64,000 nucleotides of DNA from Geodermatophilaceae bacterium NBWT11 (lineage in GTDB: Bacteria > Actinomycetota > Actinomycetes > Mycobacteriales > Geodermatophilaceae), in the NCBI GenBank assembly GCA_014218215.1, contig CP043652.1, positions 1,736,001 through 1,800,000 of the forward strand, in the 5' to 3' direction. The first letter of the stretch is position 1. Every line of letters starts with the position of its first letter. The translations under genes were made by a program, and so were the position numbers. Positions 30,525-43,482 of this stretch are shown one piece after another. A model generated the notes under the pieces. The model did not search any database. It was not told the origin of the DNA and saw only the letters and a program-made list of their open reading frames with translations.

Positions 30525-32105
30525 GTGAGCACCGCCGCCACCGAGGCCGCGCGCCGGCGCACCTTCGCCGTCATCAGCCATCCCGACGCGGGCAAGTCCA
30601 CGCTCACCGAGGCCCTGGCCCTGCACGCCCACGTGATCGGCCGCGCCGGCGCGGTGCACGGCAAGGCCGGCCGTGGCGCCACCGTGTCGGACTGGATGGA
30701 CATGGAGAAGGCCCGCGGCATCTCCATCACCTCGGCCGCGCTGCAGTTCGCCTACCGCGACGCCGTGGTCAACCTGGTCGACACCCCCGGGCACGCCGAC
30801 TTCTCCGAGGACACCTACCGGGTGCTCACCGCCGTGGACGCCGCGGTGATGCTGGTCGACGCGGCCAAGGGCCTGGAGACCCAGACCATGAAGCTGTTCG
30901 CGGTCTGCCGGCACCGTGGCATCCCGATCATCACCGTGGTCAACAAGTGGGACCGCCCCGGCAACGAGGCCCTCGCGCTGATGGACGAGATCTCCGACCG
31001 CACCGGCCTGCAGCCCACCCCGCTGACCTGGCCGGTCGGCATCGCCGGGGACTTCCGCGGCGTGCTGGACCGCCGAGACGGCTCCTACCGGCACTTCACC
31101 CGCACCGCCGGCGGCGCCACCATCGCCCCCGAGCAGGTCATGCCCGCCGACGCGGCCCTGGCCCAGGAGGGCGACGCCTGGACCACGGCGGTCGAGGAGG
31201 CCGAGCTGCTCGGCGAGACCGGCGCCGACCACGACCAGGAGCTCTTCCTCGCCGGCGCCACCACCCCGGTGCTCTTCGCCTCGGCCGTCTCGAACTTCGG
31301 CGTCGCCGCCCTGCTCGACACCCTGGTCGACCTGGCCCCGCCGCCCGGGGACCGGCCCGACGTCGACGGCAAGCCGCGCGCCATCGACGACCCGTTCAGC
31401 GCCTTCGTGTTCAAGGTGCAGGCCGGCATGGACACCGGGCACCGCGACCGGCTGGCCTACATGCGGGTGTGCACCGGGGTGTTCGAGCGCGGCATGGTGG
31501 TCACCAACGCCGCCAACAACCGGCCCTTCGCCACGAAGTACGCCCAGCAGGTGTTCGGGCGCGACCGGGAGACCATCGAGACCGCCTACCCCGGTGACGT
31601 CGTCGGGCTGGTGAACGCCCAGGCCCTCGGGGTGGGAGACACCCTCTACGTCGACTCCCCCGTGGTCTACCCGCCGATCACCACGTTCGCCCCCGAGCAC
31701 TTCGCCGTCGCCCGGGTGGCCGACACCAGCAAGTACAAGGCCTTCCGCAAGGGGATGGACACCCTGGCCGGCGAGGGCGTCGTCCAGGTGCTCATCAGCG
31801 AGCGCCGCGGGGACGGCGCCCCCGTGCTCGCCGTCGTCGGACCCATGCAGTTCGAGGTCGCCCAGCACCGGATGGAGCACGAGTTCGGCGCCAAGGTGAG
31901 CCTGGAGAACCTGCCCTACTCGCTGGCCCGCGCCACCGACGCCGAGTCGGCCGAGGAGATCAGCCGTGCCCGGGGCGCGGAGGTCATGACCCGCCCCGAC
32001 GGCGAGCTGCTGGCCCTGTTCACCGACAAGTGGTCACTGCGGGCCCTGGAGCAGAACAAGCCGCACCTCACCCTCACCCCCCTCGTCGCCGCCGAGCTCT
32101 CCTAG
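30525..32105 (+). CDS. prfC: Peptide chain release factor 3
   Basis: 526-aa translational GTPase that recycles RF1/RF2 from the ribosome. G1 SHPDAGKSTLTEAL, switch-I region with WMDMEKARGISITSA, G3 VDTPGHADFSEDTYR, G4 VVNKWDRPG; then domain II and the C-terminal domain ending LTLTPLVAAELS. Length matches RF3. GTG start with AGGA about 7 bases upstream. Divergent from the chemotaxis operon, followed by a strong terminator. Confidence 0.96.
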   Translation: MSTAATEAARRRTFAVISHPDAGKSTLTEALALHAHVIGRAGAVHGKAGRGATVSDWMDMEKARGISITSAALQFAYRDAVVNLVDTPGHADFSEDTYRVLTAVDAAVMLVDAAKGLETQTMKLFAVCRHRGIPIITVVNKWDRPGNEALALMDEISDRTGLQPTPLTWPVGIAGDFRGVLDRRDGSYRHFTRTAGGATIAPEQVMPADAALAQEGDAWTTAVEEAELLGETGADHDQELFLAGATTPVLFASAVSNFGVAALLDTLVDLAPPPGDRPDVDGKPRAIDDPFSAFVFKVQAGMDTGHRDRLAYMRVCTGVFERGMVVTNAANNRPFATKYAQQVFGRDRETIETAYPGDVVGLVNAQALGVGDTLYVDSPVVYPPITTFAPEHFAVARVADTSKYKAFRKGMDTLAGEGVVQVLISERRGDGAPVLAVVGPMQFEVAQHRMEHEFGAKVSLENLPYSLARATDAESAEEISRARGAEVMTRPDGELLALFTDKWSLRALEQNKPHLTLTPLVAAELS

Positions 32106-34386: not shown

Positions 34387-35412
34387 ATGGTGACGTTCCG
34401 CATCCCCGGTCTCCTCGCCGCACTCCTCGTGGCCGGCCTGCTGGCCCTGGTCGGGGCCACGCCGGCGGTCGCGGCGCCGTCGCTGAAGCCGGCCAAGGCG
34501 ACCGGCACCGCCGCCCGTCCCGCGGCCGCCGCTCCCGCCCCGACCGGGCGGGCCACGGCGCTGCGCTTCGGGGTCAGCGTCCCCGGTGGGCCCACCGCAT
34601 CGGCCGAGCTGGACGCCAGTGCCACCGCCGCCGGCGAGCGCCCCAGCGTCGTCCTCTCCTACGCCGACTTCACCACCGCGCCCCCGCTGGCCGGCCTGGA
34701 CGCCGTCCGCGCCCGGGGCGCCGACCCGGTGGTCACCTGGGAGCCCTGGACCTGGGGGTCGGCCGACCGCACCCGGTTCTCGATGTCGAGCATCGCCGCC
34801 GGCGCCCACGACGCCTACCTGCGCACCTGGGCCGACTCCCTCCGCCGCTGGGGCAGCACCGTGTACCTGCGCTTCGCCCACGAGCAGAACGGCGACTGGT
34901 ACCCGTGGTCGGTCGGCGGCGGCACCACGGCGGCGGACTACACGGCCGCCTGGCGGCACGTCGCCCAGCTGTTCGACCAGGCCGGCGCCGGCAACGTCCA
35001 GTTCGTCTGGAACCCCAACGTCTCCTACGCCGGCTCGTCGCCGATGGCGGCCACCTGGCCCGGCGCCGACGTCGTCGACGTGGTCGGTCTGGACGGCTAC
35101 AACTGGGGCACCTCCCAGTCCTGGAGCTCCTGGCAGTCGCCGCAGACCGTCTTCGCCGGCAGCCTCGCCGAACTGCGCACCCTCGCCCCCGGGAAGCCGG
35201 TGGTGATCGGCGAGGTCGCCTCCGCGGAGGCCGGCGGGGACAAGGCCGCCTGGATCCGCGACCTGGTCACGTGGCTGGACGCCCAGCGCGACGTCGCGGC
35301 CGTCGTCTGGTTCGACCACGCCAAGGAGACCGACTGGCGGATCGCCAGCTCCCCGGCGTCCGCACGCGCCCTGACCACCGCACTGGACCTCCGATCGGGG
35401 CAGCACGCATGA
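34387..35412 (+). CDS. Exported GH26-like glycoside hydrolase
   Basis: 341 aa. Signal peptide about 1-30 (ends AVAA), Pro/Ala linker, then a GH26 (beta-mannanase/endoglucanase clan A) TIM barrel. Catalytic acid/base Glu166 lies in RFAHEQNGDWYPW and the nucleophile Glu276 in VVIGEVASAE; both are present. Other GH26 landmarks: VVTWEPWTWG, VWNPNVSY, GLDGYNWG. It probably cleaves a beta-linked polysaccharide. It overlaps by 4 bases the GAF-PP2C gene and starts the six-gene operon with a membrane GT2, so it may trim or release the polymer made by that enzyme. Confidence 0.88.
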   Translation: MVTFRIPGLLAALLVAGLLALVGATPAVAAPSLKPAKATGTAARPAAAAPAPTGRATALRFGVSVPGGPTASAELDASATAAGERPSVVLSYADFTTAPPLAGLDAVRARGADPVVTWEPWTWGSADRTRFSMSSIAAGAHDAYLRTWADSLRRWGSTVYLRFAHEQNGDWYPWSVGGGTTAADYTAAWRHVAQLFDQAGAGNVQFVWNPNVSYAGSSPMAATWPGADVVDVVGLDGYNWGTSQSWSSWQSPQTVFAGSLAELRTLAPGKPVVIGEVASAEAGGDKAAWIRDLVTWLDAQRDVAAVVWFDHAKETDWRIASSPASARALTTALDLRSGQHA

Positions 35413-36644
35413 CCACCACCGACGTGGTCCACCACCTGGACCCCGAGCTCCTGCGTCAGCGGGCGGTCGACGCCCTCCAGCTGATCGGCACCCCCGCCGA
35501 GGAGCGCTTCGACCGGATCACCCGGATCGCCCAGCGGGTCTTCGGGGTGCCGATCGCGACGGTCACCCTGGTCGACCACGACCGGCTCTGGTTCAAGTCC
35601 TGCGCCGGGATGGACGTGCCCGAGGCCCCCAGACAGGCCTCCTTCTGCGACCGCACGGTGAGCCTGGCCGAGACCGTCGTCGTCCCCGACACCCTCGACG
35701 ACCCGTGGTTCGCCGACACCCCGGCGGTCACCGGGCCCCCGCACATCCGCTTCTACGCCGGCCACCCGCTGGTCGGTCCGGCCGGGCAGGTCGTGGGCAC
35801 GTTCTGCCTCTTCGACGTCCGCCCCCGGCGGCTGGACACCACCCAGCTGGCCCTGCTCGACGAGCTGGGCGAGTGGGCCCAGCGGGAGCTCGCGCACTCC
35901 GCGGAGATGGAGCGCGCCCAGCAGGTGCAGCGGGGCCTGCTGCCCTCCACGACCCCGGACGTCCCCGGGTGGGACGTCGACGGGCTGTGCATCCCGGCCC
36001 AGGCCATCGGCGGCGACCTCTACGACCACGAGCCGGTGCCCGGCGGGCTGGCGCTCACCGTCGCCGACGTCATGGGCAAGGGCACCGGGGCGGCCATCCT
36101 GATGGCCACCGTGCGCGCCGTGCTCCGCGGTGCGGCCCGTACGGCGGAGTCCCGGCCCGGCCGGGGCGGCGAACCGCCCTGGGCCGGGGTCTCCCTGGGC
36201 GAGGTGTTCGCCGCGACCAACCGCGACCTCGAGCCCGACCTCGCGCGCTCCGGCAGCTTCGTCACCGCCTTCCACGCCCGGCTGGACCCGGCGACCGGCG
36301 TGCTCCGGTACGTCGACGCCGGCCACGGGCTCTCCCTGGTGGCGCGGGCCGACGGCACGACCGAGCACCTCTCCGGCGGGGACCTGCCGCTGGGCCTGGA
36401 CCGGGACGCCACCTGGACCGAGCGGCAGCTGGTGCTGCTGCCCGGGGACACCCTCGCGGTGTTCAGCGACGGCCTGTTCGACGTCTTCGGCGGGACCACG
36501 GACTCCCTGGACGCCCTCTCCGCCCTGGTGCGGCGCGACCCCGAGCCGGCCGCGGTCGTGGCCGCCGTCCGCGCGCTCACGTCGGTCTCGGCCCCGCTGG
36601 ACGACGTCACCGCGCTGGTGGTCCGCCGACGGCCCGACGTCTGA
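35409..36644 (+). CDS. GAF-PP2C (SpoIIE/RsbU-like) serine phosphatase
   Basis: 411 aa, no membrane segment. A GAF sensor (about 20-165: RFDRITRIAQRVFGVPIATV, GMDVPEAPRQASFCDR) is followed by a short coiled coil (WAQRELAHSAEMERAQQVQR) and a PP2C SpoIIE domain (about 172-411) with metal-binding IGGDLYD (Asp203), VADVMGKGTGAA (Asp220), VTAFHARLDP and the final LDDVTALVVRR. It should dephosphorylate the phospho-Ser of the STAS protein encoded two genes on. The Cys/His-containing GAF may bind a small ligand or sense redox. ATG overlaps the GH26 stop; TGATG overlap with the GT. Confidence 0.9.
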   Translation: MTTTDVVHHLDPELLRQRAVDALQLIGTPAEERFDRITRIAQRVFGVPIATVTLVDHDRLWFKSCAGMDVPEAPRQASFCDRTVSLAETVVVPDTLDDPWFADTPAVTGPPHIRFYAGHPLVGPAGQVVGTFCLFDVRPRRLDTTQLALLDELGEWAQRELAHSAEMERAQQVQRGLLPSTTPDVPGWDVDGLCIPAQAIGGDLYDHEPVPGGLALTVADVMGKGTGAAILMATVRAVLRGAARTAESRPGRGGEPPWAGVSLGEVFAATNRDLEPDLARSGSFVTAFHARLDPATGVLRYVDAGHGLSLVARADGTTEHLSGGDLPLGLDRDATWTERQLVLLPGDTLAVFSDGLFDVFGGTTDSLDALSALVRRDPEPAAVVAAVRALTSVSAPLDDVTALVVRRRPDV

Positions 36645-38638
36645 TGGGCCGTGCACGGGGGGAGCGCGCGGTCCCGCTGACCGGTCGGTTGGTGGTCATC
36701 CGCACGCTGGTGCTGCTGACGGTCCTGCTGGGGCTGAACTACATCGTGTGGCGCTGGCTGTTCAGCGTGAACTGGTCGGCCTGGTGGCTGGCCGTGCCGC
36801 TGGTGGTCGCCGAGACCTACAGCCTGATCGACTCGCTGCTGTTCGGGCTGACGATGTGGCGCTACCGGCAACGCGGGGAACCGCCGCCGGCGCCTCCCGA
36901 GGCGACCGTCGACGTGCTGATCGCGACCTACAACGAGCCGCTGGACCTGGTCATGCGCACCGCCCGGGCCTCGGTGGCGATCACCCACCCGCACCGGACC
37001 TGGGTGCTCGACGACGGCGCCCGCCCCGAGCTGCGGGAGCTCGTCGAGGCGGAGGGCATCGGGTACATCACCCGCTCGGTGGACTGGACCGACCGGCCCC
37101 GGCACGCCAAGGCCGGCAACCTGAACAACGCGCTGCTGGCCACCGACGGGGAGTTCCTCCTCATCCTGGACGCCGACCAGGTGCCCGAGCCGGGCATCCT
37201 GGACCGCACGCTCGGGTACTTCACCGACGAGCGGGTCGCCCTGGTGCAGACCCCGCAGTACTTCGTCAACGTGCCCGAGAACGACCCGCTGGGCAGCCAG
37301 GCGCCGCTGTTCTACGGGCCCATCCAGCAGGGCAAGGACGGCTGGAACTCGGCCTTCTTCTGCGGCTCGAACGCGGTGCTGCGCCGCGAGGCGCTGATGC
37401 AGCTGGGGGTCACCCGCTACGTCACCGAGCTCGAGGTCAGCCTGGACCGCAGCCTGCGCACCTCCGGCGCGGTGCTCGAGCGGGCCCGGGCCGGGGTGGA
37501 CCCCGAGCAGAAGGTGGTGGCCCGGGCGCTGGGCTACGTGGCGTTCTCGCTGCGCCAGGCCCGCAACGAGCTGGCCCTGGGCCACGCCATCGCCGACGTC
37601 ACCTGGTCCTTCCAGCAGCGGGTGGACGCCGCCGCGGCCGAGGTCGTCGCCGCCGACGTCAAGGCCCTGGAGGCCGACCTGGCCTCCATCCGGGAGCTGA
37701 CCGCCGAGCTCGGCGACGAGGGCGGGCTCGCCGAGATCGACCCGGCGGCGCTCCGTCAGCTGGCCGGCCGGGGCTGGTCGCCGCTGGGCGCGCTGGAGAC
37801 GGTGCGCACGCTGGTCCGCTCGGTCGACGTCGACCGGGACGACGAGGCGCAGCCGGTGATGCCGCTGGCCACCATCTCCGTCACCGAGGACATGGCCACC
37901 TGCATGCGGCTGCACGGGCTGGGCTGGCGCTCGGTCTACCACCACGAGGTGCTGGCCCTGGGCCTGGCGCCGGAGGACCTCGGCACGATGCTGACCCAGC
38001 GGCTGCGCTGGGCCCAGGGCACCGTGCAGGTGATGCTGCGGGAGAACCCGCTGGTCCAGAAGGGGCTCTCGCTCACCCAGAAGCTGATGTACACGGCCAC
38101 GATGTGGAGCTACCTGGCGGGCTTCGCCGCGCTGGTCTACATCGCCGCCCCGATCGTCTACCTGCTGGTCGGCGTGCTGCCCGTGCAGGCGCTGAGCTCG
38201 GACTTCTTCGTCCGGCTGGTGCCGTTCCTGGTGGTCAACCAGCTGCTGTTCCTCGTCGTCGGCCGCGGTGCTGCGACCTGGCGCGGCCAGCAGTACTCCC
38301 TGGCCCTGTTCCCGGTGTGGATCCGCTCGGTCACCTCCGCGGTGGCCAACGTGTACCGCGGCCGCAGCCTCGGGTTCGCCGTCACCCCCAAGACCAAGCA
38401 GGGCGGCGACGAGCTGCCCTGGCACCTGGTGAAGCCCCAGCTCACCGTGATGGTGCTGCTGGTGGTCGCCGCCGTCGTCGGGCTGATCCGACTCGCCGTC
38501 GGCCAGGCCACCCCGCTGGGCACCTGGGCCAACCTCGTCTGGGTCGTCTACGACCTCGCCGTCTTCTCCGTCGTCATCACCGCCGTCCGCTACCGCGGGT
38601 TCTCCCCCGCCCCCATCCCAGAGAAGGTCCCCTCGTGA
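36644..38638 (+). CDS. BcsA-like membrane glycosyltransferase (GT2) with helical insertion
   Basis: 664-aa processive beta-glycosyltransferase related to cellulose synthase. Two N-terminal membrane helices (about 19-39, 47-70), cytosolic catalytic domain with VLDDGARPEL, DxD Asp176/Asp178 in ILDADQVPEPG, TED at 414-416 and QRLRW at 452-456, then about four C-terminal membrane helices. Oddities: about 150 helix-rich residues (256-410, coiled-coil-like) are inserted between FFCGSNAVLRREAL and TED, where BcsA has only a short loop. I see no PilZ domain, so c-di-GMP activation as in BcsA is unlikely. Product polymer unknown. Confidence 0.9.
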   Translation: MGRARGERAVPLTGRLVVIRTLVLLTVLLGLNYIVWRWLFSVNWSAWWLAVPLVVAETYSLIDSLLFGLTMWRYRQRGEPPPAPPEATVDVLIATYNEPLDLVMRTARASVAITHPHRTWVLDDGARPELRELVEAEGIGYITRSVDWTDRPRHAKAGNLNNALLATDGEFLLILDADQVPEPGILDRTLGYFTDERVALVQTPQYFVNVPENDPLGSQAPLFYGPIQQGKDGWNSAFFCGSNAVLRREALMQLGVTRYVTELEVSLDRSLRTSGAVLERARAGVDPEQKVVARALGYVAFSLRQARNELALGHAIADVTWSFQQRVDAAAAEVVAADVKALEADLASIRELTAELGDEGGLAEIDPAALRQLAGRGWSPLGALETVRTLVRSVDVDRDDEAQPVMPLATISVTEDMATCMRLHGLGWRSVYHHEVLALGLAPEDLGTMLTQRLRWAQGTVQVMLRENPLVQKGLSLTQKLMYTATMWSYLAGFAALVYIAAPIVYLLVGVLPVQALSSDFFVRLVPFLVVNQLLFLVVGRGAATWRGQQYSLALFPVWIRSVTSAVANVYRGRSLGFAVTPKTKQGGDELPWHLVKPQLTVMVLLVVAAVVGLIRLAVGQATPLGTWANLVWVVYDLAVFSVVITAVRYRGFSPAPIPEKVPS

Positions 38639-38973
38639 TCGACTTCCAGACGCACACCCGGGACGACGGCATCGGGGTGCTCGCCCCCGTCGGCCGGCTG
38701 ACGATGGTCGCCGCACCCCAGCTCCGCGGGCTGGTCAGTCAGCTCGTCGAGCAGGGCCACCCGCGCATCGTGGTGGACCTCTCCGGCACCGAGTTCATCG
38801 ACAGCTCCGGCCTCGGCGCGCTCATCGCCGGGCTCAAGACCACCCGGCAGGCCGGCGGTGACCTGCGGCTGGCCGCGGTCGGCCCGCAGGTGCAGGCCGT
38901 GCTGGAACTGACCAACCTGCACCGCGTGCTGCGCCCGCGCCCCGACGTCGCGGGCGCCTTCGATGGCGACTGA
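38635..38973 (+). CDS. STAS-domain anti-sigma-factor-antagonist-like protein
   Basis: 112 aa, single STAS domain like SpoIIAA/RsbV. GVLAPVGRLTMVAAPQLR, IVVDLSGTEFIDSSGLGALI with the phosphorylatable Ser57 in the DSSG motif, and the helix LKTTRQAGGDLRLAAVG. GTG start with AGAAGG. It is placed between the GT2 and an RsbW-like ATPase and shares the operon with a PP2C phosphatase, so it is the expected switch protein: bound by the ATPase kinase when unphosphorylated, released when phosphorylated, reset by the phosphatase. Confidence 0.92.
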   Translation: MIDFQTHTRDDGIGVLAPVGRLTMVAAPQLRGLVSQLVEQGHPRIVVDLSGTEFIDSSGLGALIAGLKTTRQAGGDLRLAAVGPQVQAVLELTNLHRVLRPRPDVAGAFDGD

Positions 38974-39409
38974 CGGCGTCGAGCACGTCCTGCGGGTCAG
39001 CGCCCGCCCCGAGAGCCTCGAGCAGGTGCACGAGCTGCTCGCCGCCCTCTGGGCGGACGACGCCATGCCCGCCCTGGACCGGATGCACTTCGAGACCGCG
39101 GTCGCCGAGGTGGCGGCCAACATCGTCGAGCACGCCACCCGGGGCACCGCGGTGACGCTGGTGCTGCGGGTCAGCGGCTGGCCCGACCGGGTCGAGGCCC
39201 GCTTCGAGGACGACGGCGCCGAGGCCCACGTCGACCTGGACGCAGCCTCCATGCCCGAGTCCGGCGACCCCGACGACCTGGACGCCGTGCTGGCCCTGGC
39301 CGAGGACGGCCGCGGCCTGGCGCTGGCCCGGGCCGCCGTCGACGAGCTGGTCTACGAGCGGGAGGGGTCGACCAACCGCTGGTTCCTGGTCCGCCGGCGG
39401 TCGCGGTGA
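38963..39409 (+). CDS. RsbW/SpoIIAB-like ATP-binding protein (anti-sigma-factor kinase type)
   Basis: 148-aa HATPase_c protein. N-box FETAVAEVAANIVEHATRG (Glu49, Asn53, His57), then RFEDDGAEA (degenerate G1) and EDGRGLALARAAVDELVYER (G2). Probably phosphorylates the adjacent STAS protein. It might bind a sigma factor or, since no sigma gene is nearby, another target such as the GT2. Start ATG overlaps the STAS stop by 11 bases; its stop overlaps the next gene by 4. Confidence 0.85.
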   Translation: MATDGVEHVLRVSARPESLEQVHELLAALWADDAMPALDRMHFETAVAEVAANIVEHATRGTAVTLVLRVSGWPDRVEARFEDDGAEAHVDLDAASMPESGDPDDLDAVLALAEDGRGLALARAAVDELVYEREGSTNRWFLVRRRSR

Positions 39410-41871
39410 GGCGCGCCGGGCTCCTCGCCGTCCTCGTCGGACTCCTCGTCGCACTGGGGGTCGCCCCCGCCTGGGCCGCCCCGCGCGAGGCCCTCACCCC
39501 GCCGGCCGGCGCCCCCTACGTCGGCCCGGCGCTGGACTGGACCAGTGACGGCGCCGCCGACTACGCCGACCGGCTCGGGGAGTCCCCCAGCCTGTTCGCC
39601 CAGTCCGTCCGCTACCCGCTGACCGACGACGACGAGCTCTACCTGCGCCAGTTCGTGGAGCAGGCCACCACCACCGGCGCGCTGGCCGTCCTGACGCTGG
39701 AGCCGACGGAGTCCCTCGGCGACCTGACCGCCGAGGACGCCCAGCGGCTGGCCGACGAGCTCGCCGAGCTGACCGAGGCCGACGACGCCGCGTTCTGGGT
39801 GCGCTTCGCCCCGGAGATGAACGGCTCCTGGACCCCCTGGGGCCAACAGCCCGCGGCCTACGTCGACGCCTTCCGCACCCTGGCCGACGTCGTGCACGCC
39901 ACCGCGCCGGGTGCGGCGATGACCTGGGCCCCGGCCTACGGCGCGGGCTACCCGTTCGGCACCGCCCGCGGCGAGGTCGAGGGCTCCGGCCCGCGCGAGG
40001 AGTCCGCCCTGGACACCGACGGGGACGGTGCGGTCACCGACGCCGACGACCCCTACGCCCCGTACTGGCCCGGCCCCGGGTACGTCGACGCCGTGGGGCT
40101 GTCGGCCTACCACTACGGCCTGCAGCAGGACTTCGGCGCCAACGACGTCCCGCCCGCCGGCAAGTACGAGGCACTGCTGTCCGGCACCGAGGGATGGAGT
40201 TCGCCCACCGGCGCCGGTCGCGACTTCTACGGCACCTACGTGACCGGCCAGGACCTGAGGATGGTGGTGCAGACCGGCGCGTTCTTCGCCCCCGGCGACC
40301 CGGGCGCGGACGCCGCCCAGGAGCTCGCGGTCAAGCAGGGCTGGTGGCGCCAGGTGTTCGCCGCCGCCCCGCAGTTCCCCGGGATCGCCGCCGTCGTGTG
40401 GCTGGAGCAGGAGCGCCCCGAGGCCGAGGCCGACGACGCCCTCGTCGACTGGCGGGCCACTGCCACCCCCGAGCTCGCGACCGCGTTCGCCGCCGACCTC
40501 ACCGCCGCCGGGTTCACCACCGGGGCGGTCACCACGGTGCAGGACCTGCAGTCCGGCGGCACGGCACTGGCCCAGGACCGCGCCCGGACGACGACCGGCG
40601 GCGGCGACGAGATGGGCTGGATCGTCTTCTGCGCCGCGCTGGCGCTGCTGCTCTTCTACGCCTCCGGGCTGGCCGGACGGTTCCTGCCGTCCTGGCGGTA
40701 CCCGGACGAGCACGACCCCCGCGACCGGCGGCTGGACCTGTTCCGCGGCTGGATCATCGTGGCGGTCGTGGTGACCCACATCGAGGTCGCCGGGCTGTTC
40801 TCCTACGTCACGCTCAACGCCATCGGCGCGATCACCGGCGCGGAGATGTTCGTGCTGCTCTCGGGCGTCGTGCTCGGCATGGTCTACCCGGTCGCGGTCC
40901 GCCGGGCCGGCGCGTGGCCGGCCGCCAAGGCCGCGTTCCGCCGGGCCGGTCGGCAGTACCTCACCGCGCTGGGCGTCGTCGTCCTGGTGTTCGTGCTGTC
41001 GTACGTGCCCTTCATCGACGCCTCGGTGATCACCACGTTCACCGACCGGGGCACCGGCGCCGACGGCAGCGCCGGGGCGGGCACGGTCTACGACCTGTAC
41101 GCCAACGCCGGTCAGCTGCTGGGCTACCCGCCGCCCTGGTACGCGGTGCAGCAGCTGCTGCTGCTCCAGATGGGCCCCTGGGTCTTCAACATCATGGGCC
41201 TGTTCGTGCTGCTGTCGCTGCTGGTGCCGCCGCTGGTGTGGCTGCTGCAGCGCCGGCTCTGGTGGCTGGTGCTGGCGGTCAGCTGGGGCCTCTACGTGCT
41301 GCACGCCCAGACCGACCTGCGGGTGCTGCCCTCCCAGTTCGAGGACTCGTTCCCCCTGCTGGTCTGGCAGATCGCCTTCACCCACGGCCTGGTCGTCGGC
41401 TTCTACCGCCGGCAGATCACCGCCGCGCTGTCCCGGGTGCGCGGGAAGGTGCTCGTCACCGTGCTGATGACCGCCTACGTCGGCACCCTCGTCGTCCTGT
41501 GGGCGGGCTCGGTGTTGCACGTGGAACCACTGGAGGGCGTCTACGACGGGCTCTACGAGACCTTCTACCAGCGCACCGACCTGCAGGTCGGCCGGTTGGT
41601 CGACCTGGCCCTCGTGGTCGTCGTCGCCTACGCGGTGCTGACCACGATGTGGAAGCCGGTGAACGCCGCCGTCGGCTGGTTCTACACACCGCTGGGGAAG
41701 GTCAGCCTCTACGTCTTCATCGTGCACGTGTTCTTCGCCCTGGCCGTCGGCAACATCCCGGGCCTGGACCGGACGAACCCGTGGGTGGGCACCGCCGTGC
41801 ACGCCGTCGTGCTGGCCCTGGTGTGGCTGATGGTGAGGTTCAAGGTCGGGTTCCGTTTCATCCCGACCTGA
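39406..41871 (+). CDS. GH26-like domain fused to OpgC/acyltransferase-3-like membrane domain
   Basis: 821 aa. Signal peptide (1-25), GH26-like domain (about 35-370), a linker, then a C-terminal OpgC-type membrane domain (about 410-821) with 9-10 helices and DRRLDLFRGWIIVAVVVTHI, the OpgC hallmark with its conserved His. In the GH26 domain the acid/base Glu137 is kept (RFAPEMNGSWTPWG), but the residue expected as nucleophile is Gln289 (MVVQTGAFF, usually ETG). An EF-hand-like Ca loop DTDGDGAVTDAD (203-214) lies between. It probably binds the polymer outside and adds acyl groups. GTG start; convergent, 3 bases from the EamA gene. Confidence 0.88.
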   Translation: MRRAGLLAVLVGLLVALGVAPAWAAPREALTPPAGAPYVGPALDWTSDGAADYADRLGESPSLFAQSVRYPLTDDDELYLRQFVEQATTTGALAVLTLEPTESLGDLTAEDAQRLADELAELTEADDAAFWVRFAPEMNGSWTPWGQQPAAYVDAFRTLADVVHATAPGAAMTWAPAYGAGYPFGTARGEVEGSGPREESALDTDGDGAVTDADDPYAPYWPGPGYVDAVGLSAYHYGLQQDFGANDVPPAGKYEALLSGTEGWSSPTGAGRDFYGTYVTGQDLRMVVQTGAFFAPGDPGADAAQELAVKQGWWRQVFAAAPQFPGIAAVVWLEQERPEAEADDALVDWRATATPELATAFAADLTAAGFTTGAVTTVQDLQSGGTALAQDRARTTTGGGDEMGWIVFCAALALLLFYASGLAGRFLPSWRYPDEHDPRDRRLDLFRGWIIVAVVVTHIEVAGLFSYVTLNAIGAITGAEMFVLLSGVVLGMVYPVAVRRAGAWPAAKAAFRRAGRQYLTALGVVVLVFVLSYVPFIDASVITTFTDRGTGADGSAGAGTVYDLYANAGQLLGYPPPWYAVQQLLLLQMGPWVFNIMGLFVLLSLLVPPLVWLLQRRLWWLVLAVSWGLYVLHAQTDLRVLPSQFEDSFPLLVWQIAFTHGLVVGFYRRQITAALSRVRGKVLVTVLMTAYVGTLVVLWAGSVLHVEPLEGVYDGLYETFYQRTDLQVGRLVDLALVVVVAYAVLTTMWKPVNAAVGWFYTPLGKVSLYVFIVHVFFALAVGNIPGLDRTNPWVGTAVHAVVLALVWLMVRFKVGFRFIPT

Positions 41872-41874
41872 TGC

Positions 41875-42831
41875 TCAGCGGACGACGGTCTCCGGCACCG
41901 GGTCCACGTCCACCACGGCCGCCGGGCGCTCCCCGGCCCGGACCAGCACGATCCCGGCCAGGACGACGACCCCGCCGAGCAGCTGCACCGGGCCGGGCTC
42001 CTGGCCCAGCAGCAGGGCGGCGAACAGGACGGCGAAGAGCACCTCGGTGAGCCCGACGAAGGAGGACAGGCGCGAGCCCAAGCGGCGGATGGCGGCGACC
42101 CCGGTCGCGTAGGCGAGCGCCGCGGCGAGCAGCGCCAGTCCGAGCACCGGGACGAGCCAGGTGACCTGCGCGCCGGCGAGCTCGACGTCGGCTGCGCTGG
42201 TCCGCCAGGGCACCAGGCCCACCGCGGCCGCCAGCCCGAGGGCGACCGCGCCCACACCGAGTCCGCCCCAGGCGCTGACCAGCGGGGGCAGGGCGCCGTC
42301 CGAACGCGCGGAGATGACGAAGTAGGACGCGAGCCCGACCGCGGCCAGCAGTCCCCAGACCACACCGAGCGGGTCGATCTGGGCGCCCCGGACGACGTCG
42401 AGCACCAGCACCAGGCCGACCACCGCGACGGCGACGCCGGTGGCGGTGACCGGGCTGGGCCGCTGCCCGTGCCGCAGCCAGGTCCACAGCACGACCAGGA
42501 CGACGCCGGAGTACTCCAGCAGCAGCGCCACCCCGACCGAGAGCCGGCCGACGGCGAGGAAGTACGCGAGCTGGCAGCCGGCGACGGCCAGCAGGCCGAA
42601 GGCGAGCACCGAACCGACGTTGCTGCGCAGCAGGTGCCAGCGCCCGCGCAGCTGCAGCACCGCCGGCACGGTGAGCACCAGCGCGGCCAGCCCGACCCGG
42701 ACGGTGACGGCGGCCGCGGCGCTCCACCCGGCGTCCAGCAGCGCGGTGGCGAACACCCCGGAGGTGCCGAAGGCGGCGGCCGAGGCCAGGGCGAGCAGCA
42801 GTCCGGTCAGCCCGGCGCGACGGTCCAGCAC
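41875..42831 (-). CDS. EamA/DMT superfamily transporter
   Basis: 318-aa drug/metabolite transporter with ten membrane helices in two five-helix EamA repeats (about 10-145 and 155-300). Typical features: FGTSGVFATALLDAGWS at the start, LEYSGVVLVVLWTW around 105-118, and the second-repeat GLTEVLFAVLFAALLLGQEP. Exports an unknown small metabolite. ATG at 42831, divergent from a CGNR regulator gene with repeated operator-like sequences in between, so that regulator likely controls it. Confidence 0.9.
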   Translation of the reverse strand: MLDRRAGLTGLLLALASAAAFGTSGVFATALLDAGWSAAAAVTVRVGLAALVLTVPAVLQLRGRWHLLRSNVGSVLAFGLLAVAGCQLAYFLAVGRLSVGVALLLEYSGVVLVVLWTWLRHGQRPSPVTATGVAVAVVGLVLVLDVVRGAQIDPLGVVWGLLAAVGLASYFVISARSDGALPPLVSAWGGLGVGAVALGLAAAVGLVPWRTSAADVELAGAQVTWLVPVLGLALLAAALAYATGVAAIRRLGSRLSSFVGLTEVLFAVLFAALLLGQEPGPVQLLGGVVVLAGIVLVRAGERPAAVVDVDPVPETVVR

Positions 42832-42849
42832 GGTGGATCTCCTCGAGAC

Positions 42850-42907
42850 GCGTCAGGACCGTTGAGACGTACACTCCTGACGTGCCGGACCGTAGCAGAC
42901 GTCAGGA
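42850..42907. promoter_or_regulatory. Triple operator in the EamA/CGNR intergenic region
   Basis: ACGTCAGGA at 42899-42907 and its exact inverse TCCTGACGT at 42875-42883 (15-bp gap), plus a third copy GCGTCAGGA at 42850-42858. The copy nearest the CGNR gene also supplies its AGGAG ribosome site. Spacing fits dimers of a regulator acting on both divergent genes. Confidence 0.6.
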
Positions 42908-42912
42908 GCAAC

Positions 42913-43482
42913 ATGCTCTTTGCCCATGACACCGAGGTCGGGCTGAACGCGGCCGCCGAGCTGGTGAACACCGCCTCCGGGTCGGGCACCGGCACCGAGC
43001 TGCTCCCCGACCCGCCGGCCCTGGCCGCCTTCCTGGACGCCTGGCAGTTCACCGGCGACCGGGCCGGTGACGCCGCCGAGCTCGCCGGGGTGCACGCGCT
43101 GCGCGCCGAGCTGTGCGAGATGTGGGACGCCGAGACCGAGGCCGTCGTCGCCGTCGTCAACCGGTTGCTGCGCGAGGGGCAGGCCCGGCCGCAGCTGGTC
43201 CGGCACGACGACTGGGGCTGGCACGTGCACGCCACCGAGCCGCACGCCCCGGTGCCGCACCGGATGGCCGTCGAGGCCGCGATGGCCGTGGCCGACCTGG
43301 TCCGCGCCGAGCAGCTGGACCGGCTGGGCCGCTGCGAGGCCGAGGGCTGCGGCGCCGCCCTGGTCGACCTGACCCGCAACCGCTCCCGCCGGTTCTGCGA
43401 CGCCAGCTGCGCCAACCGCACGCACGCCGCCGCCTACCGCGCCCGCCGCGCTTCCCCGAACGGGGTGGGCCCGGCAGCATGA
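42913..43482 (+). CDS. CGNR zinc-finger / ABATE-domain regulator
   Basis: 189 aa. N-terminal ABATE-like domain (LFAHDTEVGLNAAAELVNT, ALAAFLDAWQFTG) and a C-terminal zinc finger CEAEGCGAALVDLTRNRSRR followed by FCDASCANRTHAAAYRARR. The usual CGNR signature is CANR here. Proteins of this type are putative stress-responsive transcription factors. ATG with AGGAG. Divergent from the EamA exporter and probably its regulator. Its stop is 4 bases before the next gene. Confidence 0.9.
   Translation: MLFAHDTEVGLNAAAELVNTASGSGTGTELLPDPPALAAFLDAWQFTGDRAGDAAELAGVHALRAELCEMWDAETEAVVAVVNRLLREGQARPQLVRHDDWGWHVHATEPHAPVPHRMAVEAAMAVADLVRAEQLDRLGRCEAEGCGAALVDLTRNRSRRFCDASCANRTHAAAYRARRASPNGVGPAA

Follow-up and report, generated by a model that had tools for sequence, protein, structure and literature searches.

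How is a cellulose synthase-like enzyme switched when it lacks the domain through which such enzymes are usually controlled? Bacterial cellulose-type synthases are mostly understood via cyclic di-GMP (c-di-GMP) and PilZ, whereas partner switching is known mainly for sigma factors. The question is raised by an operon of Geodermatophilaceae bacterium NBWT11, located in a stretch of 64,000 nucleotides (the window; C1:1736001-1800000 of a single-contig genome of 4,594,226 bases), in which a BcsA-like membrane glycosyltransferase of family 2 (GT2) is encoded together with the phosphatase, STAS protein and ATPase of a partner-switching module. Judged from sequence comparison, the locus represents a real, conserved system, a new variation on both partner switching and the control of bacterial glucan synthases, with direct control of the synthase as the best reading. 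We propose that this actinobacterial operon probably serves β-glucan synthesis, and that a phosphorylation-dependent partner switch would control the membrane synthase post-translationally. The six genes span window positions 34387-41871, with successive overlaps of 4, 1, 4, 11 and 4 bases:

34387..35412, plus strand: GH26a, glycoside hydrolase, probably secreted (Pfam Glyco_hydro_26, 2.2e-10; signal peptide by eye)
35409..36644, plus strand: GAF-PP2C (SpoIIE-type) serine phosphatase, predicted input of the switch (Pfam SpoIIE, 7.9e-36, and GAF, 8.7e-15)
36644..38638, plus strand: GT2, BcsA-like putative membrane glucan synthase without PilZ (Pfam Cellulose_synt, 3.6e-21, and GT2 families)
37409..37858, plus strand: helical insert of the GT2, about 150 residues (GT2 residues 256-405), between FFCGS and TED
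38635..38973, plus strand: STAS protein with DSSG motif, GTG start (Pfam STAS, 8.8e-19)
38963..39409, plus strand: RsbW/SpoIIAB-like HATPase, predicted STAS kinase (Pfam HATPase_c_2, 5.5e-13)
39406..41871, plus strand: GH26b-OpgC, degenerate GH26 domain and membrane OpgC-type acyltransferase, GTG start (Pfam OpgC_C, 1.3e-53)

Coordinates and Pfam matches agree with a first-pass annotation of this DNA, which had described six overlapping same-strand genes with these domains; its pairing of a BcsA-like synthase with a partner-switching module in one operon is likewise borne out by domains and motifs.

The strongest evidence comes from the conservation of this linkage. A scan of 84,980 species confirmed 436 relatives, the best 80 of which were used together with five from a sample of the order, giving 85 loci. 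The STAS and ATPase genes lie near the GT2 gene in 75/85 loci, which excludes a chance association. The order PP2C>GT2>STAS>ATPase is contiguous in 62/85 loci (as counted from the table of gene orders), and among the 75 loci with the module four are rearranged yet close (L015, L072, L079 and L083). The most frequent layouts were PP2C>GT2>STAS>ATPase>GH26-OpgC (26 loci), PP2C>GT2>STAS>ATPase (16), GH26a>PP2C>GT2>STAS>ATPase (15), GT2>GH26-OpgC (7) and GT2>STAS>ATPase (6), each of the remaining orders being represented by one locus. A PP2C with phosphatase domain was found in 67/85 loci, GH26a in 24/85 and a GH26-OpgC match in 39/85, in four of which the aligned frame lacks the OpgC part. The conserved unit is thus the four-gene core, while the presence of hydrolases and OpgC varies between loci. 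The six-gene order of the window combines the two commonest extended layouts. The first-pass annotation had proposed to search for exactly this order, and had taken its absence from every other genome as speaking against its reading; literally, the exact order was indeed found in 0/85 related loci, but that of the core occurs widely. Beyond these genes, no family exceeded 20/85 loci, apart from clusters judged to be shadow frames by the position of their representative; the next commonest neighbours were SDR (20/85) and OmpR-type regulators (17/85). These family counts come from a partial clustering with queries up to L080, in which loci L080-L099 were mostly not queries.

Full-length relatives were present in 6/200 genomes of the order (own included; E<=1e-80), in none of five other sampled members of the genus at the same threshold, and in 2/396 genomes of a phylum sample (own included; E<=1e-60). 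Plasmid carriage was considered and rejected, as no plasmid matched at E<=1e-80 and, at 1e-25, no plasmid match extended over 80% of the query. The 85 loci contain near-duplicates as well as two loci of one strain. The former include L025 and L026 of Nocardioides sp. CFH 31398, with identical GT2s on two contigs, either because the locus was duplicated recently or through an artefact of assembly. The latter (L042 and L060) belong to Arthrobacter agilis 4041, whose two family GT2s fall on different tree branches, both without STAS or ATPase in the examined stretch.

The synthase itself is related to BcsA. GT2 residues 14-255 and 408-644 align to BcsA in the sequence search, with the insert between them unaligned, and the best PDB match is 9b8v (BcsA; E 1.2e-67 by sequence, 6.9e-20 by fold). 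With an AlphaFold model of the whole GT2, of moderate quality (mean predicted local distance difference test, pLDDT, of 72.6), BcsA structures matched first and plant CesA next. The motifs DDG, DxD, FCGS, TED and QRLRW are kept in 85/85 loci (the first F of FFCGS is replaced by Y in three), and the family retains the gating motif FxVT(P)K of BcsA, which reads FAVTPK in the window GT2. The window GT2 has no Pfam match to PilZ, and the chain following its gating motif comprises 78 residues (68-117 across the 85 loci); both the missing match and the short C-terminal tail are consistent with the earlier suggestion of a control other than by c-di-GMP. With 344.6 vs 699.1 bits the window GT2 stays far below the NCBIfam cutoff for the CelA equivalog. 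A conserved BcsB-like neighbour was not seen in the partial clustering, and no search of the loci with a BcsB model was made.

All 85 GT2s carry the insert (152-162 residues), where outgroup GT2s have three residues. It occupies the position which we take to be that of the class-specific region of plant CesA. Modelled alone, it forms three long helices followed by short, uncertain ones (mean pLDDT 74.3; ten-residue means of 77-94 after the first block). The window insert gave no Pfam match at E<=1; among all inserts the most frequent Pfam family was TraB/PrgY/gumN (34/85, best E 3e-4), which did not match in the window. Mimicry of a sigma factor by the insert was rejected, as no sigma family was among the 25 most frequent of the 76 Pfam families matched by the 85 inserts.

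How closely insert and module go together was seen in an evenly drawn sample of the class (394 genomes), in which the flanks of 19 further full-length members were read. Wherever the flanks were usable (18/18), STAS and ATPase lie within 1.5 kb of the insert-bearing GT2; 14 of these are not identical to earlier loci and four have GT2s already seen, and the count leaves out L120 (contig end), L125 (broken) and fourteen weaker matches. Among outgroup BcsA-like GT2s of the same sample, all without insert, 0/7 had a STAS, ATPase or PP2C match within 1.5 kb, and PilZ was matched by 3/7, in one case with a score under the cutoff. As for L125, the broken family GT2 matches over residues about 39-253 plus a short later piece and is adjoined by a remnant PP2C match.

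Ten loci of the main set lack the module. On a quick GT2 tree, built without insert columns and with no root inferred, they correspond to two changes nested in groups with module-bearing members, which fits two losses. With the L040 ATPase as query, 8/9 genomes of the larger loss clade (L058 left out) gave only matches of 27-32%, compared to 63-92% for the other sister-clade members and 31-37% in distant module-bearing loci. The difference between 27-32% and 63-92% points to a real loss of the module in this clade, a diverged and moved copy being also conceivable. In an Arthrobacter clade the module was lost, with GT2 motifs and insert kept. Module-less loci differ at 2/14 conserved insert positions, vs 1/106 and 2/93 in the core; as a clue to the role of the insert this was discarded as uninformative, since the differences fall nearly all in one clade. 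On the same tree, the GT2 of L078, a record titled Kitasatospora arboriphila, is placed on short branches inside the Williamsia group, so that the record may be mislabelled or contaminated, or the gene recently transferred.

The three switch proteins keep the residues that a phosphatase, a STAS protein open to phosphorylation and a kinase would require. The metal-binding Asp columns of the PP2C are kept in 63-67/67 sequences per column. The STAS proteins have DSS in 75/75 loci with an invariant Ser, the window copy scoring above the TIGR00377 cutoff; the phosphorylated residue is presumably the second Ser (Ser58), by analogy with SpoIIAA. In the ATPase, for which phmmer found no solved relative at E<=0.1, E49, N53 and H57 of the N-box are invariant (75/75) and the GRG motif occurs in 74/75 loci (with a gap in the remaining one), whereas the second ATP motif is less constant, its D being kept in 58/75. 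Input domains of the phosphatase vary: GAF in the window, a receiver in L019, and in several Arthrobacter loci the match begins past GAF. In L019, a single frame (L019:11295-13265) combines HATPase_c_2, a response-regulator receiver and SpoIIE, each over the Pfam cutoff, and is a natural kinase-phosphatase fusion within the module.

The conserved adjacency of a PilZ-less synthase and such a switch suggests that polymer production is switched directly. From gene set, motifs and linkage we infer the binding partner, the direction of control and the place of the signal as follows. The ATPase would phosphorylate the STAS serine and, when free, bind and restrain the GT2. A signal perceived at the GAF domain would activate the PP2C, which would then dephosphorylate the STAS protein; the latter could now capture the ATPase and free the synthase, so that gating would rest on the switch instead of c-di-GMP/PilZ. 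Because GT2s with intact motifs survive loss of the module, the ATPase is likelier to be an inhibitor that STAS removes than an essential activator. Its position beside the active site makes the insert the most likely, albeit unproven, control surface. The most far-reaching form of this proposal, a sigma-free partner switch that targets a membrane glycosyltransferase and, instead of c-di-GMP/PilZ, gates this processive polysaccharide synthase by way of a dedicated helical insert of the catalytic domain, in at least a dozen actinobacterial genera, is tentative, and we would sooner expect it to need revision than to stand in full.

Several observations weigh against direct control of the synthase or against the insert as its site. 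The interaction of ATPase or STAS with the GT2 is a prediction from comparison, and the coincidence of insert and module may reflect a single ancestral origin rather than many independent events. In 8/75 module loci no PP2C was found close to the GT2. The fold search with the insert gave no PDB match under E 0.1 and thus no clear relative of known structure, and the insert is retained in the 10 module-less loci, so that it is either tolerated or has a role independent of the module. Across 68 rows, raw distance correlations were 0.862 for insert vs STAS and 0.78 for the GT2 core, but in a rate-matched test the insert (0.858 with STAS, 0.855 with ATPase) was equalled by other GT2 columns (0.851 and 0.856), and in paired draws it was ahead in 71.5% (STAS) and 44% (ATPase); coevolution as an indication of a docking site was thus rejected. 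Retention after module loss and the lack of special coevolution would both be expected if the insert were a structural or oligomerisation element, comparable to the class-specific region of plant CesA, and unrelated to the switch, which would then act on another face of the GT2, e.g. the gating loop. The insertion site shared with plant CesA, and the plant CesAs as next fold matches after BcsA, fit this idea as well; in the class sample, however, insert and module went together (18/18 vs 0/7), which speaks against it. We give it not much less than an even chance; as it concerns the site only, it is compatible with direct control of the synthase.

It is also conceivable that the target is not the synthase. 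In an ordinary anti-sigma system, the ATPase would hold a remote SigB/F-type sigma factor transcribing this or other operons. The domains are those of RsbU/RsbV/RsbW, and a SigB/F-like sigma factor, and with it a possible sigma target, is present in 45/52 module-bearing genomes (27 above the curated cutoff) and in the own genome. These figures derive from a TIGR02980 (SigBFG) census of 55 GT2-bearing genomes (52 with and three without the module), chosen for spread and not at random: 27 genomes scored above the curated cutoff, the best matches of 21 others were intermediate (E 8e-69 to 3e-54), and the remaining seven had nothing better than E 3e-40 (L024, L033, L040, L072, L083, L085 and L097). 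For comparison, this model gives 295.7 bits for SigF of the own genome and 130.8-141.9 bits for its primary and WhiG sigma factors. The seven low-scoring genomes all keep STAS and ATPase; at E<=1e-10 they yielded 12 TIGR02980 matches, 11 scoring best on primary/RpoD-type models and one on FliA/WhiG models (one of the two matches in L097 scores best on the primary-like actinobacterial 'SigB' model PRK07921). With only primary- or FliA-type sigma factors in these module-bearing genomes, the usual SigB/F target seems to be absent there; sigma factors of the extracytoplasmic function (ECF) type were not examined, and since these seven assemblies (7/52) are draft or unrated, any one of them may have a gene that was missed. 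The own SigF (C1:98353-99024) lies about 1.67 Mb from the locus and has HATPase genes nearby (C1:95996 and 97658), and a SigF-like gene flanks only 2/85 loci (SigF/RpoD-like queries). No sigma factor with region 3 was found in the window, all six of the genome lying outside (ECF not searched), in line with the earlier remark that none is nearby. The module therefore seems not to be a sigma switch, at least not everywhere, and we regard an anti-sigma role as quite improbable. Alternatively, the switch might act on another polysaccharide-related partner encoded elsewhere (a transcription factor, diguanylate cyclase, or export or cell-wall protein), as in Hsb/Sia. Known switches do have such other targets, namely SiaC acting on the cyclase SiaD (PMC8457831) and HsbR/HsbA with RpoS (PMC6482189), and the mechanism of SypA was still undefined in 2015 as far as the available text of PMC4517449 goes. 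In our loci, however, no such gene is conserved: SDR and OmpR-type families reach the partial counts given above, and the constant partner is the GT2. We therefore consider this alternative unlikely. The first-pass guess of an ATPase target other than a sigma factor, be it the GT2 or something else, has gained strength from the conserved linkage and the seven genomes without SigB/F.

Since the synthase alone does not decide which polymer is made, the accessory genes are of interest. The nearest solved relative of GH26a is the lichenase Lic26A of C. thermocellum (PDB name Endoglucanase H; 2bv9, E 2.5e-49), compared to 1.5e-10 for the best mannanase. Its catalytic Glu residues E166 and E276 are intact, as are both Glu in 24/24 sequences, and the enzyme is predicted to be a Lic26A-like lichenase. 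This makes a β-(1,3;1,4)- or β-(1,4)-glucan likely, and we infer that the polymer is probably a β-glucan, which GH26a would trim. The claim of two GH26 domains holds by profile, the second one falling below the Pfam cutoff (18.3 vs 20.2 bits) and yet aligning to the first at 100% probability in hhalign. In the window, GH26b keeps the acid/base Glu and has Q289 at the presumed nucleophile place, a column uncertain by one residue because hhalign sets the Glu of GH26a one column off. Among 37 relatives (two more are gapped) this place is E in 22, Q in 8, R in 3, D in 3 and S in 1. Three of the 22 with E (L060, L079 and L083; two Kocuria and one Arthrobacter agilis) show the reverse of the window copy, Gln at the acid/base and Glu at the presumed nucleophile. 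The second GH26 has thus probably lost its nucleophile and would be non-hydrolytic here. With the PF10129 (OpgC_C) match covering 352/358 positions (1.3e-53), the simplest reading is that GH26b is a glucan-holding domain for the OpgC acyltransferase; the fused protein would probably hold the polymer and acylate it.

Regarding the surroundings of the operon, the next gene downstream encodes an EamA transporter (41875-42831, minus strand), an ABATE/CGNR zinc-finger regulator is found at 42469-43482, and a release-factor-3-like GTPase upstream at 30525-32105. A consensus scan found no sigma-70-type promoter, and a scan for terminator-like sites gave one, which is no excess over shuffled sequence.

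Compared with BcsA of E. coli and C. sphaeroides, the window GT2 has fold, catalytic motifs and gating motif in common, and differs by the absence of PilZ and the insert of about 150 residues; a conserved BcsB-like neighbour did not show up in the partial clustering. A Gram-positive BcsA-like relative is RiGT2, the (1,3;1,4)-β-glucan synthase of Romboutsia ilealis, whose activity is not raised by c-di-GMP; unlike the window GT2, it has a PilZ domain needed for activity, and the available text of PMC10374906 mentions neither an insert nor a switch (STAS, 0 occurrences). The module shares PP2C, DSSG-type STAS and HATPase kinase with RsbU/P-RsbV-RsbW and SpoIIE-SpoIIAA-SpoIIAB. It departs from them in that 83/85 loci have no linked sigma factor (SigF/RpoD-like queries only), that the constant partner is a glycosyltransferase, and that no SigB/F-type sigma factor was found in seven genomes. 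Among the literature matches listed, judged by title and start of the abstract and with subscription papers and preprints mostly outside, none links a partner switch to a cellulose-type synthase; the terms 'Nocardioid' and 'Clavibacter' occur 0 times in the main text of PMC7112194. In SiaABCD of Pseudomonas aeruginosa, a PP2C (SiaA) takes part in a phospho-switch with an enzyme target, as described in the available texts of PMC8457831, PMC7647112 and PMC7278518. That target is a diguanylate cyclase and control runs via c-di-GMP, whereas the module described here would target the synthase itself; the window PP2C matches the SiaA NCBIfam model at 2e-6, far below cutoff. A further likeness is seen in SypE/SypA of Vibrio fischeri, where, according to the available text of PMC4517449, a phospho-controlled STAS protein governs polysaccharide-dependent biofilm formation with no evidence of a sigma target. 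The common feature is a phospho-controlled STAS protein tied to a polysaccharide; SypE is a multidomain response regulator of a Gram-negative syp locus, compared here by description with no SypE sequence aligned. For the widespread actinobacterial branch of PilZ-less synthases, which many soil actinobacteria carry, it has to be asked what does the switching, and the conserved linkage offers a concrete answer. If correct, our proposal would extend partner switching to an enzyme target, and might hint at the action of further STAS proteins with undefined targets, such as SypA.

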